A stretch of DNA of 34,113 nt from Acidobacteriota bacterium. GTDB lineage: Bacteria > Acidobacteriota > UBA4820 > DSQY01. Location of the stretch: assembly GCA_021787565.1 (NCBI GenBank), contig JAJYLT010000037.1:1-34113 (forward strand), given 5' to 3'. Positions 6,814 to 11,811 of this stretch are shown here, piece after piece. The notes below the pieces were generated by a model. The model saw nothing but the letters and a program-made list of their open reading frames with translations. It searched no databases and had not been told where the DNA came from. The position numbers and the translations under genes were made by a program. Numbering within the stretch: position 1 is the first letter of the stretch; each line of letters starts with the position of its first letter.

Positions 6814-7863
6814 TTAGAGGAGACCCTGCGCTTTCATGACTTCGGCGATGAGCAACGTTCCGCCGGCCGCGCCGCGGATGGTGTTGTGAACGAGGGCGGC
6901 GTATCGGAGGCCGAGGATGGGGCAGGGCTGGAGGCGGCCGACGGTGACGGCCATGCCCCCGGAGCGGTCGCGATCCAAGAGGGGCTGGGGGCGGGCGAAC
7001 CCCTCTTCCAGGACGATGGGCCGTTCGGGGGCGGAGGGAAGGCCCCTGCCGGCGAGAGGGGAGCGGTAGCTCGCGAAGGCGCGGCGGACCTCCTCGATGT
7101 CGGCCTGCCGCTCCAGCTCCACGGAGACGGAGAGCAGGTGGCCGTCGCGCACGGGAACGCGGTTGCACTGCGCGCCGAGCGGCAGCTCGGCGGGGCGAAC
7201 GGAGCCGCCCTCGATCCGGCCGAAGATCTTGGCGGGCTCGGCGCGGAGCTTGGCCTCCTCCCCGGCGATCTCCGGTAGCACGTTGTCCAGAGCCTCCAGG
7301 GAGGCGACGCCCGGATGCCCGGCGCCGGAGAGGGCCTGCAGCGTCGTGACCAAGACCCTCCGCAGGCCGAAGGCCCGGCGCAGCGGCTCCAGCGAGAGGC
7401 AGAGGCCGATGGTGGAGCAGTTGGGGTTGGCGGCAACGGCACCGCCGTATCGGGCTCTCTGCGAGGCGAGGAGGGCCAAGTGGTCGGCGTTCACCTCGGG
7501 GATCACGAGGGGCACCTCTGGGTCCATGCGCAGGGCGCTCGCGTTGCTGATCACCGCGAAGCCGGCGGCGCGGAAGGCGAGTTCTGCCTCGGAAGCCGTG
7601 GCGGCGTCGAGCGCGGAGAAGGCGAAGGCGGCCTCGATCCCACCGGGGTCAAGCGGCCGCACCCGCATGCCCGCGGCGCCCTCGGGCACGCCCCCCGGCA
7701 GAAGCCAGCGCACCGCCTCGCCGTAGGGCTTGCCGGCCGAGCGATCGGAGGCCACGAGGGCGGAGAGCTCGAACCACGGATGGCCTTGCAGGAGTTGGAC
7801 GAACCGCTGGCCCACCATGCCCGTGGCGCCCAGCAGCGCCACCTTCAGCCGCCGATCAGCCAT
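6814..7863 (-). CDS. asd: Aspartate-semialdehyde dehydrogenase
   Basis: Reduces aspartyl phosphate to aspartate semialdehyde with NADPH, the second step of the aspartate family pathway. It has 349 residues. The N-terminal nucleotide-binding loop is GATGMVG (12-18), the catalytic Cys149 lies in NPNCSTIGL, and the substrate-side segment VRDGHLLSVSVE carries the expected base His. The C-terminus HNTIRGAAGGTLLIAE is the archaeal/fungal-like branch rather than the E. coli type. The ATG (7863) overlaps the lysC stop by 8 bp, so it is translationally coupled and is the last gene of the SAM-controlled operon. A decayed copy of its 3' end lies just downstream. Confidence 0.95.
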   Translation of the reverse strand: MADRRLKVALLGATGMVGQRFVQLLQGHPWFELSALVASDRSAGKPYGEAVRWLLPGGVPEGAAGMRVRPLDPGGIEAAFAFSALDAATASEAELAFRAAGFAVISNASALRMDPEVPLVIPEVNADHLALLASQRARYGGAVAANPNCSTIGLCLSLEPLRRAFGLRRVLVTTLQALSGAGHPGVASLEALDNVLPEIAGEEAKLRAEPAKIFGRIEGGSVRPAELPLGAQCNRVPVRDGHLLSVSVELERQADIEEVRRAFASYRSPLAGRGLPSAPERPIVLEEGFARPQPLLDRDRSGGMAVTVGRLQPCPILGLRYAALVHNTIRGAAGGTLLIAEVMKAQGLL

Positions 7864-9250
7864 GGGCGGCCTCCTTCTCGACGGCGGCCTCGGCGGCCTG
7901 TTCGAAGAATCGCCGGTGGAGCGAGCGCACCGCCGAGGCCAGGTCCGATTCGGCGATGACGAAGCCCAGGGCGACCTCCGATCCTCCCTGCGAGATGAGG
8001 GAGACGGGCACCTCTCCGAGGGCGTCGAAGACCTGGCCGGCGAGCCCGGGGTGCCCTCTGAGCCCTTCCCCCACTACGCAGACCATGGCCTGTGCCTCCC
8101 GGATGCTGACGGAGCCCAGCTTCGACAGCTCACGCAGGGCCCCTTGCAGGGCGGAACAGCCCTGGAATGCCAAGGCTACGGAGACCTCGGAGGTGGCGAG
8201 GGCGTCAGGGACGACGCCGTGCCGGTCCAGAATCTCGAAGAGGCGGGCCAGGAAGCCATGGGCCTTGAACATCCGTGCCGAGACGAGGTGCACGAGGGTC
8301 ACTCCTTCCTTGTAGGCGATGCTGCGCACCGGGCGCCCGTCCCTCGGGGCTTCGGCGAGGATGACCGTGCCGCTGCCGGCGGCGCGCCTCGTGTTGAGCA
8401 CGCGCACGGGAATGCCGCGCTCCACCGCCGGGGCCAGCGTCTTGGGATGAAGGACGCGGGCGCCGAAGAAGGCCAGCTCCGCCGCCTCGCGGAAGCTCAT
8501 GACGGGGATGTTCCTGGCCTCCGGGACGAGCGAGGGGTCGGCCGTCATGACCCCGTCCACGTCGGTCCAGATCTCGATCTCCTCGGCCCCGAGGGAGGCG
8601 CCTATCAGGGAGGCGGTGTAGTCCGAGCCCCCCCGGCCCAGGGTGGTGGCCGCGCCCGAGAGGTCCCGGGCGATGAACCCCTGCGTCACGGGCACGAGGC
8701 GGCGGGCCAGCAGGGGGGCGAAGGCCTCGCGACAGCGGTGCCCCGTCTCCTCGATCAGGGGTTCGGCTCCTCCGTGGGAGGTTTCGGTCACCACCAGCTC
8801 GCGGACGTCCACCCAGACCGCGGGAAGCCCCCGCGAGGCCAGGGCCGCCGATACCAGTCGGCTGGAGAACAGTTCGCCGAAGTGGAGCAGCCGGTCCTCC
8901 ACCGCCGGGGAGAACTCTTCCACCGCGGCGAGCCCTCCCACCAGACGCTCGATGGAGGCGAAGTCGCGCTCGAAGTGGGTGAGCAGAGACCGCCGTTCCT
9001 GGGCCGACTCCACCAGTTCTTCGGCCAGCCCGGCGTGGAGGAGGCGCAGATCGCGCAGGACCTGGAGGCCGTAATCGAGGCGCCCCGAGGCGGCGACGCG
9101 GCCGATGGCCTCCAACGCGTCCGTGGTGTGGCCCACGGCGGAGACCACGAGCAGGAGCGGATCGGAGGCCCTGCTCCGGGTGATGTCGGCCAGGCGGAGG
9201 ATGGCCTCCGCGTCGCCCACCGAGGTGCCGCCGAACTTCAGGACGCGCAT
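7856..9250 (-). CDS. lysC: Aspartate kinase, monofunctional, with C-terminal ACT domains
   Basis: Phosphorylates aspartate, the committed step toward Lys, Thr and Met. It has 464 residues. The kinase start KFGGTSVG (5-12), [11 protein letters not shown] and [12 protein letters not shown] are the nucleotide and substrate motifs. The C-terminal ~150 residues hold two ACT-type regulatory domains; [15 protein letters not shown] and ATSEVSVAL match the lysine-sensitive AKIII type, so lysine feedback is likely though not visible from sequence alone. The ATG at 9250 overlaps the metX stop by 13 bp, and the stop overlaps asd. Presence in a SAM-riboswitch operon suggests this isozyme is dedicated to, or shared with, methionine synthesis. 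Confidence 0.95.
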
Positions 9251-10371
9251 GGCGAGAGCCCTTTGCCGAGGAAGGCCGCGAGCATGAGGTCGAGCGCGGC
9301 GGTCTCCACGAGGAAGGCGTCGTGGCCGAACCGAGAGGTCAGCTCGGCGTAGGAGGCTTTCACGCCCAGGGTCCTGAGCCCCTCGGCGGTGGTGCGGAGG
9401 GCGCCCGGCGCGAAGAGCACGTCCGAGTCGATGCCGACGACCAGCACCTGCGCGCGGATTGCCGCCATGGCCTCCTCCGGGGAGGAGAAACCGGCGGAGG
9501 CGTCGTGCAGATCCATCGTGCGGGTGAGGGCCACGTAGCTTCGCGCGTCGAAGCGCCGCACGAGTTTCTCGCCCTGGTAGCCGAGGTAACGCTCCACCTG
9601 AAAGGGGTTGAAGGCTGAAAGGCGCGCCTGCGCCGCTGGATCCAAGCGCTCGCGTCCGAAGCGCTCCTCGAAGAGGGGCTCGCTCCGGTAGGAGACCATG
9701 GCGATGGCGCGGGCCAGGGCCAGTCCCCGTTCGGGGCCGTTCCCCTCGTAGCGCCCCTGGTGCCAGGCGGGATCCAGCTCGATAGCGCGGCGGCCCACGC
9801 CGTTGAGCGCGATGGACCAGGTCGTGGCCCGGAAGGGTCCGGCGATGGGGACGGCGGCGGCCACGAAGTCGGGGTATTGGACGGCCCACTGCCAGGCCAG
9901 CATGGCGCCCAGGGAGCCGCCCAGCACGAGCGCCAGGCGGCGCACGCCGAGGTGGTCCAGGAGGGCCTTGAAGGCCCGGACCGCATCCCGAGTGGTCACG
10001 ACGGGGAAGGAAGCCCCGTAAGGCTCGCCCGTCTCCGGATCAGCGCTGCCTGGCCCCGTGGAGCCGTAGCAGCCGCCGGGGATGTTGGCGCAGATCAGGA
10101 AATGCCGGGAGGGGTCCAGGGCCCGGCCCGGCCCGATGAGCCCCTCCCACCAGCCTGGCTCGTCCCGTGGGCCGTGGGAGGCGACGTGGGGACCTCCGGT
10201 CAGGGCGTGGCACAAAAAGACGCCGTTGTCACCGGCCTCGTTCAGAGCTCCCCAGGTCTCGTAGGAGAGGGTCAGGTCGCTCAGGAAGCCTCCGCCTTCG
10301 AGCCCAAAGGGTCCGGGAAGGAGGTAGAGCTTCTGGGAGCGGGGATCGGGAAGCTGGGCGGGCTGGCTCAT
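9238..10371 (-). CDS. metX: Homoserine O-acetyltransferase
   Basis: Acetylates homoserine with acetyl-CoA to activate it for sulfur transfer. It is a 377-residue alpha/beta hydrolase fold protein. The family pattern YETWGALN (38-45), CHALTGGPH (54-62) and the nucleophile Ser153 in GGSLGAM are present. The Asp of the triad lies in GIDSDVLF and the His in RFGHDAF near the C-terminus. Some MetX homologues use succinyl-CoA, and sequence inspection cannot fully exclude that. Start ATG 10371 forms an ATGA overlap with the stop of metY, and the 3' end overlaps lysC by 13 bp. Confidence 0.94.
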   Translation of the reverse strand: MSQPAQLPDPRSQKLYLLPGPFGLEGGGFLSDLTLSYETWGALNEAGDNGVFLCHALTGGPHVASHGPRDEPGWWEGLIGPGRALDPSRHFLICANIPGGCYGSTGPGSADPETGEPYGASFPVVTTRDAVRAFKALLDHLGVRRLALVLGGSLGAMLAWQWAVQYPDFVAAAVPIAGPFRATTWSIALNGVGRRAIELDPAWHQGRYEGNGPERGLALARAIAMVSYRSEPLFEERFGRERLDPAAQARLSAFNPFQVERYLGYQGEKLVRRFDARSYVALTRTMDLHDASAGFSSPEEAMAAIRAQVLVVGIDSDVLFAPGALRTTAEGLRTLGVKASYAELTSRFGHDAFLVETAALDLMLAAFLGKGLSPCAS

Positions 10372-11648
10372 GCCTTCTCCAGGGCCTGAGCGAGGTCCGC
10401 CAGGAGGTCGTCGATGTGTTCCAGGCCGACGGAGAGGCGCACCAGGTCGGGGGTAATGCCACCCTCCCGCTGGTCCTCCTCGCTGAGCTGGGAGTGGGTC
10501 GTGCTGGCCGGATGGATGGCCAGGCTCTTGGCGTCGCCCACGTTCGCGAGGTGTGAGAAGAGCGCGAGGCCGTCGATGAAGCGCCCGCCCGCTTCGGCGC
10601 CGCCGCGCACCCCGAAGACCACCATGCCCCCGAAGCCGCCGCTCAGCACGCGGAGCGCCGTCGCGTGGGCGGGATCTTCCTCCAGCCCCGGGTAGCGCAC
10701 CCAGGTCACCTTTGGGTGGGCCTTGAGAAAGCGGGCCACGGAGAGGGCGTTCTGGCAGTGGCGCTCCATCCGCAGGGGCAGCGTTTCGAGGCCCTGGAGG
10801 GCGTACCAGGCGTTGTCCGGGTTCAGGCAGGCGCCGAGGTTGCGCAGGGGAACCGTGCGGGCGCGCACGGTGAACGCGATGGAGGAGAGCGGCCCCAGGT
10901 CGTGGGCGAAGCGCAGGCCGTGATAGCTCGGCTCGGGCTCGTTGTAGAGCGCGAACCGGGCGTTCGTCCAGTCGAACCGTCCCGAGTCCACGATGATCCC
11001 GCCGATGAACGTGCCGTGGCCGCCGATCCACTTGGTGAGCGAGTGGACCACGATGTCGGCGCCCTGCTCGATGGGCCGGCAGAGGTAGGGGGTGGCGAAG
11101 GTGTTGTCCACGATGAGCGGGAGGCCGTGAGCCCTGGCGACGCCGGCCACGGCGCGGATGTCCACGACGTCGAGGGCCGGGTTCCCGACGGTCTCCACGA
11201 AGAGGGCCCGGGTTTTAGGCGTGATGGCGCCCGCGAAGCTGGAGGGATCGAGGGGGTCCACGAAGCGGGTGCGGATGCCGAACTGGGGGAGGATGTCGTG
11301 GAACTGGGTGTAGGTGCCGCCGTAGAGGTTGGAGGCCGAGACGATCTCGTCCCCCGATCGGGCGAGGTTCACGACCGCGGTGAAGATGGCGGCCGTCCCC
11401 GAGCTGACGGCGAGCGCGGCGGCGCCGCCCTCGAGTTCGGCCATGCGCTTTTCGAGCACGTCGTGCGTGGGGTTCTGGAGGCGCGTGTAGATGTTGCCCA
11501 GCTCCTTGAGCGCGAAGAGGTCGGCCGCGTGCCTCGTGCTCTTGAAGACGTAGCTGCTGGTGCGGTGGATGGGGAGAGCGCGGGCGCCGGTCTCGTCGAT
11601 GGGCTGTCCCGCGTGAAGGCAGAGGGTTTCGAAGCGGAAGTCCGCCAT
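10368..11648 (-). CDS. metY: O-acetylhomoserine sulfhydrylase (aminocarboxypropyltransferase)
   Basis: A PLP enzyme joining O-acetylhomoserine and sulfide to give homocysteine. It has 426 residues. ETLCLHAGQ (7-15), [20 protein letters not shown] and SSGTAA (82-87) are family hallmarks. The cofactor lysine is Lys206 in [11 protein letters not shown], and Asp181 in DNTFATPYL contacts the PLP ring. Start ATG 11648 is chosen because GGGAGG lies seven bases upstream; an in-frame ATG at 11717 would begin inside the riboswitch and translate through the terminator stem, so it is rejected. It is the first gene of the operon, directly controlled by the upstream SAM-II riboswitch. Confidence 0.95.
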
Positions 11649-11670
11649 GGTGTCCTCCCGACAAGGGGCA

Positions 11671-11708
11671 AAAACAAGAAAACCCGCCTCGGCCGAAGCC
11701 GGACGGGT
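11671..11708 (-). terminator. Riboswitch-linked intrinsic terminator in the metY leader
   Basis: On the minus strand ACCCG-TC-CGGC, tetraloop TTCG, GCCG-AGG-CGGGT forms a strong stem followed by TTTTCTTGTTTTT. It lies between the SAM-II aptamer and the metY ribosome site, where an attenuator belongs. Its 5' arm, with the three bases before it (GCGACCCG), can instead pair with CGGGCGC of the aptamer P1 3' strand (one bulged A), giving a plausible antiterminator. Confidence 0.8.
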
Positions 11709-11713
11709 CGCGT

Positions 11714-11770
11714 CCATGCTTTAGCCGCATTTCTTAAGCGCCCGCAAGCTATGGTTCAAATCGGCGCCCG
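11714..11770 (-). promoter_or_regulatory. SAM-II riboswitch upstream of metY-metX-lysC-asd
   Basis: Read on the minus strand, the leader shows the SAM-II order of conserved blocks: GGCGCC, GATTTGAACC, TAGCTTGC, GGCGC, AAATG, GGCTAAAGC. P1 is GCGCC with GGCGC; the conserved GATTT loop strand and the 3' GCTAAA segment are those of the known H-type pseudoknot aptamer. SAM-II is best known upstream of metA, metX and metY genes, which agrees with the genes here. SAM binding should stabilise P1 and the pseudoknot and lower expression. Confidence 0.92.
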
Positions 11771-11782
11771 AAGCAAGGCGAG

Positions 11783-11811
11783 AATCTAGCACCCGGCCCG
11801 GGCGCTGTCAA
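11783..11811 (-). promoter_or_regulatory. Consensus sigma-70 promoter of the methionine operon
   Basis: On the minus strand TTGACA (11811-11806), a 17-bp spacer and TAGATT (11788-11783). Transcription would start a few bases before the SAM-II aptamer. The -35 box is 12 bp from REPIN copy 2. Confidence 0.85.

Follow-up and report, generated by a model that had tools for sequence, protein, structure and literature searches.

We have good confidence that the methionine operon metY-metX-aspartokinase, located in the 34,113-nucleotide stretch of DNA that was analyzed (the window), is regulated by a SAM-II riboswitch that controls transcription attenuation as an OFF switch. The computed support for this assignment comprises the aptamer, its covarying P1 and P2 helices, a promoter, a terminator, and a non-random, recurring complementarity between the aptamer core and the terminator arm (core:arm). 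The role of antiterminator seems to be taken by the strand of the aptamer that carries its binding core. From established SAM-II behavior we infer that SAM is bound, that the choice between folds is made kinetically, and in which direction the switch works. A preliminary description of this DNA had also proposed that SAM turns transcription off by attenuation; that assignment is well supported, and its switching direction would follow by analogy with the same known elements.

Organization of the metY leader

The leader of the operon extends from 11811 to 11648 on the minus strand and contains, in order, a promoter-like site, the SAM-II aptamer, a terminator hairpin with its U-tract, a Shine-Dalgarno sequence, and the ATG at 11648 (Table 1). 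The consensus promoter of the preliminary description was recovered as TTGACA-17-TAGATT with an extended -10 TG (one found versus 0.1 expected), with a predicted transcription start at ∼11776. A matching hexamer pair is present just 5′ of P1 in 10 of the 12 scored leaders, the window included, and the spacers are unrelated outside the genus. The leader thus has the SAM-II features of a promoter a few bases 5′ of P1 and methionine/SAM genes downstream. The strong terminator noted earlier was also confirmed; the hairpin, followed by UUUUCUUGUUUUU, is placed between the aptamer and the metY start codon, and an equivalent hairpin and U-tract occur in the leaders of relatives. The folding energy of the whole leader was not unusual when compared to shuffles (z -1.19) and for this reason was not counted as evidence.

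The MetY proteins that matched best in the named collection were from mixed phyla, and no alphaproteobacterium was recognized among their titles. Another ATG, at 11717, falls within the P2 3′ strand, shares the metY reading frame, and would provide a 23-codon extension spanning the terminator. This codon was rejected as the metY start, as it is not conserved in relatives outside the genus.

Table 1 Features of the metY leader and operon in the window
Feature	Positions	Strand	Basis
Promoter-like site: -35 TTGACA (11811-11806), 17-bp spacer, extended -10 TG-C-TAGATT (11788-11783)	11783-11811	minus	Motif scan
P1 5′ strand GGGCGCC	11763-11769	minus	RF00521 alignment, nested folds
P2 pseudoknot 5′ strand CCAU-A-GC	11748-11754	minus	P2 covariation
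P1 3′ strand GGCGCUU	11736-11742	minus	RF00521 alignment, nested folds, covariation
P2 pseudoknot 3′ strand GCAUGG, directly 3′ of the conserved GCUAAA	11714-11719	minus	Covariation
Putative antiterminator 5′ strand (aptamer core plus P2 3′ strand), CGGCUAAAGCAUGGACG	11711-11727	minus	Nested folds, shuffle test, recurrence
Putative antiterminator 3′ strand (most of the terminator 5′ arm, loop, inner 3′ arm), CGUCCGGCUUCGGCCG	11690-11705	minus	Best core partner, folds, shuffles
Intrinsic terminator hairpin, GACCCGUCCGGC-UUCG-GCCG-A-GGCGGGUU	11681-11709	minus	-21.0 kcal/mol
U-tract, UUUUCUUGUUUUU, 3′ of the terminator hairpin	11670-11682	minus	Read from sequence
Shine-Dalgarno GGGAGGA for metY (ATG 11648), well 3′ of the aptamer and terminator	11653-11659	minus	By eye
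metY, O-acetylhomoserine sulfhydrylase, 426 aa	10368-11648	minus	TIGR01326, E 7.5e-189
metX, homoserine O-acetyltransferase (start approximate)	9238-10392	minus	NF001209 above its cut-off, E 7.6e-123
Aspartate kinase (start approximate)	7856-9250	minus	TIGR00657 above its cut-off, E 2.4e-99

Identity and covariation of the aptamer

The Rfam SAM-II model (RF00521, SAM_alpha) matched the leader over its full length at 11777-11698 of the minus strand, with E values of 0.007 for 301 bases and 0.019 for the genome. The score of 21.6 bits did not reach the gathering cut-off of 36, which is the curators' score threshold and not a structural feature. The Rfam check suggested in the preliminary description thus gave a full-length match at a sub-threshold score. 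When RF00521 searches were carried out at a limit of E 10, matches were obtained in 14 of 14 control genomes. The low score of the window aptamer arises from a P1 that is rich in GC and from a linker before GCUAAA that differs; P1 and the loop 5′ of GCUAAA deviate from the Rfam consensus. The core letters GAUUUG, GCUUGC, and GCUAAA are intact when compared with that consensus and are nearly invariant among 12 aptamers. A second model (R2), built from seven aptamers that are all outside the family of the window, was used to search the 3.47-Mb genome, and the leader was the sole significant place (E 3.5e-13; next best, 7.6). The proposed SAM-II aptamer is therefore weak by Rfam but unique in the genome by R2, and we conclude that the element is very likely a real SAM-II aptamer, with SAM sensing predicted from its sequence. 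A possible second SAM-II copy, the next RF00521 match in the genome (G000:C33), was without P1 by eye and was absent among the weak R1 and R2 matches; it was rejected as a chance match.

The architecture of a single stem, P1, and a pseudoknot, P2, is backed by covariation across a set of 12 distinct aptamers. All pairs of P1 were kept (100%), two of them doubly changed, and 95% of the cells in the main P2 helix were paired, with three pairs changed on both sides. For P1 and P2 together, 93% of cells were paired and 20 cells were doubly changed versus 6.3 in shuffles, with none of 500 shuffles reaching 20; the signal collapsed when the pairing partners were slid as a control. The R1 aptamer was present in 7 of 9 genomes of the window's family, where it is flanked by a promoter and a U-tracted terminator. 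The family aptamers are upstream of metY-like genes in several genomes, and those of other lineages precede metH and metK (assigned from N-termini by eye). The RF00521 cut-off was passed by four relatives (G003, G004, G054, and G110).

A proposed antiterminator formed by the aptamer core

Pairing of 11727-11711 with 11705-11690 would create a 15-bp core:arm hairpin. Its bases are common to P2 (GCAUGG) and to the terminator arm, so the hairpin is mutually exclusive with both of these structures, as befits an antiterminator. Folding of the growing transcript was calculated with nested (pseudoknot-free) minimum-energy and ensemble methods, which are thermodynamic and not kinetic. The core:arm hairpin was the minimum-energy structure at transcript lengths of 86-92 nt, with P1 intact; at 86-90 nt the 3′ arm of the terminator is not yet out. 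The terminator dominated the folds at 94 nt and beyond, as expected of a kinetic switch, yet this behavior is no proof of one.

The core:arm duplex of the window has an energy of -23.6 kcal/mol (p = 0.0005 versus dinucleotide shuffles of the arm). The combined p value was ∼1e-11 over 11 units and ∼1e-9 for the eight more divergent units, using hand-drawn arm windows; these combined values overstate the evidence because the units are related. Three single units (G004a, G302a, and G379) missed p < 0.1 in the dinucleotide test. Swapping the terminators between units worsened the core:arm energy, with p = 0.0001 for 15 units and 0.03 and 0.02 for two subsets. When all 68194 16-mers from the two strands of the window were compared, only 9 equaled the arm as a partner of the core, and these consist of seven that overlap the core's antisense and two that are the arm; thus, aside from its own antisense, the core strand finds its best partner in the whole window in the terminator arm. 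The hairpin can be formed by 13 of 13 examined units of this type, and its helices changed in step among units (e.g., CGGC/GCCG versus CAGC/GCUG). The pairing was not seen in G035, G059, G051, and G020, which are SAM-II units of the phylum at a greater distance.

According to the model that we favor, RNA polymerase would start near 11776 and P1 would be made first. When SAM is scarce, P2 would be weak and the strand CGGCUAAAGCAUGGACG would be free to capture the emerging terminator 5′ arm in the 15-bp hairpin; with its arm captured, the terminator would not form in time and metY would be transcribed. When SAM is abundant, the P2 pseudoknot and the GCUAAA core would be locked and the antiterminator strand occupied, allowing the terminator at 11709-11681 to fold and the transcript to be released.

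Alternative modes of action

We also considered that the SAM-II aptamer acts on translation, with the hairpin serving as a constitutive, partly leaky terminator in the manner of S. meliloti metA. The ATG at 11717 is positioned for such control, being in the P2 3′ strand and in the metY frame, and the terminator separates the two starts; the same arrangement has been published for S. meliloti metA (PMC9373788). However, no Shine-Dalgarno sequence is found 5′ of 11717, and this ATG is missing in G002, G005, G007, G008, and the first unit of G004. Given, in addition, that the MetY start at 11648 has its own GGGAGGA outside the aptamer and that the complementarity of the terminator arm to the core is specific, translational control is quite unlikely.

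A different antiterminator had been put forward for the same riboswitch in the preliminary description, in which the P1 3′ strand CGGGCGC pairs with GCG-A-CCCG (GCGACCCG); SAM must then act by stabilizing P1. These strands do pair by their letters, as seven pairs and one bulge can be drawn and the letters are identical in G001 and G007, but its energy was no better than that obtained with dinucleotide-shuffled terminator arms (p = 0.42; combined p over 11 units, 0.67). It was also not selective, with 2160 of 68210 window 8-mers (∼3%) pairing as well with the P1 3′ strand. The probability of the pairing was at most 0.11 at any length of the growing transcript, and enforcing it on the 90-nt transcript raised the energy by 4.1 kcal/mol relative to the fold with P1 and the core:arm hairpin. 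Moreover, P1 reportedly forms whether or not SAM is present, and P2 is SAM-dependent (PMC10907184), a behavior that fits the core:arm model and does not fit one based on the P1 strand. The P1-strand antiterminator was rejected from the shuffles, the growing-transcript folds, and the count of 8-mer partners, and we regard it as very improbable. A SAM-II-like aptamer with a changed ligand or lost function, as might be suspected from the score below the Rfam cut-off and the deviations in P1 and the loop before GCUAAA, is extremely unlikely because GAUUUG, GCUUGC, and GCUAAA are all preserved, the covariation of P1 and P2 extends over several lineages, and the aptamers precede metY in the window's family and metH and metK (by N-termini) elsewhere.

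SAM-II units in other leaders

Two SAM-II units in series are found in G004, G008, G054, G302, and G110; the window has a single unit. The second unit of L119 (G004) carries an insertion of a few dozen bases 5′ of GCUAAA, and its core:arm complementarity is kept (p = 0.0005). In the tandem of L126 (G110), the first unit is accompanied by a terminator and the second, at ∼1619 on the minus strand, ends in AAAAGGAGG; the latter probably acts on translation because AAAAGGAGG is a few bases 5′ of an ATG. SAM-II units are situated upstream of a MoxR-like AAA+ ATPase gene in L150 1-4868 (G014; PF07728), L124 (G302), and L126 (G110). Next on the same strand in G014 are an ORF that may encode a metallopeptidase/VWA protein and another that resembles MetK (by eye), and this MoxR-like/metallopeptidase/MetK-like gene set is unexpected for a SAM-II riboswitch. 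Tandem SAM-II matches in L011 (G059) and L017 (G020), with terminators after the units that were read, are 5′ of a gene for a PLP-dependent enzyme resembling threonine synthase (PF00291 for L011), an enzyme that competes with methionine synthesis at a branch point.

Comparison with known systems

Terminators associated with SAM-II aptamers have been known since 2005 (PMC1273637), metY is the core SAM_alpha target (PMC4239095), and 44 examples of tandem SAM-II elements have been catalogued (PMC9481103); each of these aspects is already published. The earlier remark that SAM-II elements are best known for translation control does not agree with the literature, in which termination was called the prevalent SAM-II mechanism in alpha- and beta-Proteobacteria in 2007 (PMC2258182) and S. 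meliloti metZ is a transcriptional SAM-II leader (PMC9373788). As of 2007, experiments had reportedly yet to establish how these aptamers drive termination (PMC2258182), and the study that covered S. meliloti metA failed to predict a riboswitch-driven antiterminator for it (PMC9373788).

In Sinorhizobium metZ (L156), the P2 3′ strand GGCCGG pairs with the terminator arm CCGGUC (p = 0.02), and on the basis of this shared pairing the window works like a known kind of element. Pairing of the core:arm type was also seen for Shinella metZ (p = 0.05) and for the Rhizobium metA leader (L153), where a candidate antiterminator joins the aptamer core UCGCUA to the terminator arm GGUAGCGA (p = 0.03); for S. 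meliloti metA it was not significant (p = 0.34). Such a pairing may already be drawn for metZ in Figure S1 of PMC9373788. It is an evenly balanced question whether, in many transcriptional SAM-II riboswitches within and outside the Alphaproteobacteria, the P2 3′ strand, often together with the GCUAAA pocket letters, is itself the antiterminator, perhaps extending to metA leaders such as that of Rhizobium. Ligand binding and antitermination would in that case compete for the same bases. The window provides a concrete, testable base-pairing model for SAM-II-driven termination and extends transcriptional SAM-II control to a lineage that the Rfam model misses at its cut-off; it also shows that a model tailored to the lineage can recover SAM-II elements that score below the threshold in GC-rich genomes.

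The window's metY leader and S. meliloti metZ share a promoter just 5′ of P1, an H-type pseudoknot aptamer, a terminator directly 3′ of P2 whose 5′ arm is complementary to the P2 3′ strand, and a methionine gene downstream. The metY leader differs in its GC-rich P1 and the linker before GCUAAA, in a longer predicted antiterminator (15 bp) that includes the GCUAAA core, and in its lineage, whose best-matching MetY proteins are not alphaproteobacterial. The known tandem SAM-II and SAM-II/SAM-V pairs resemble the relatives with two units, whereas the window has one. The metXZ element of beta-Proteobacteria, compared by its description, likewise is a leader RNA that precedes methionine genes and for which, besides a terminator, an antiterminator has been proposed, but it has six conserved regions without an assigned ligand (PMC4239095). 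We conclude that the metY leader element is ordinary in kind, and that what is new is a member in its lineage and a corrected switch model.
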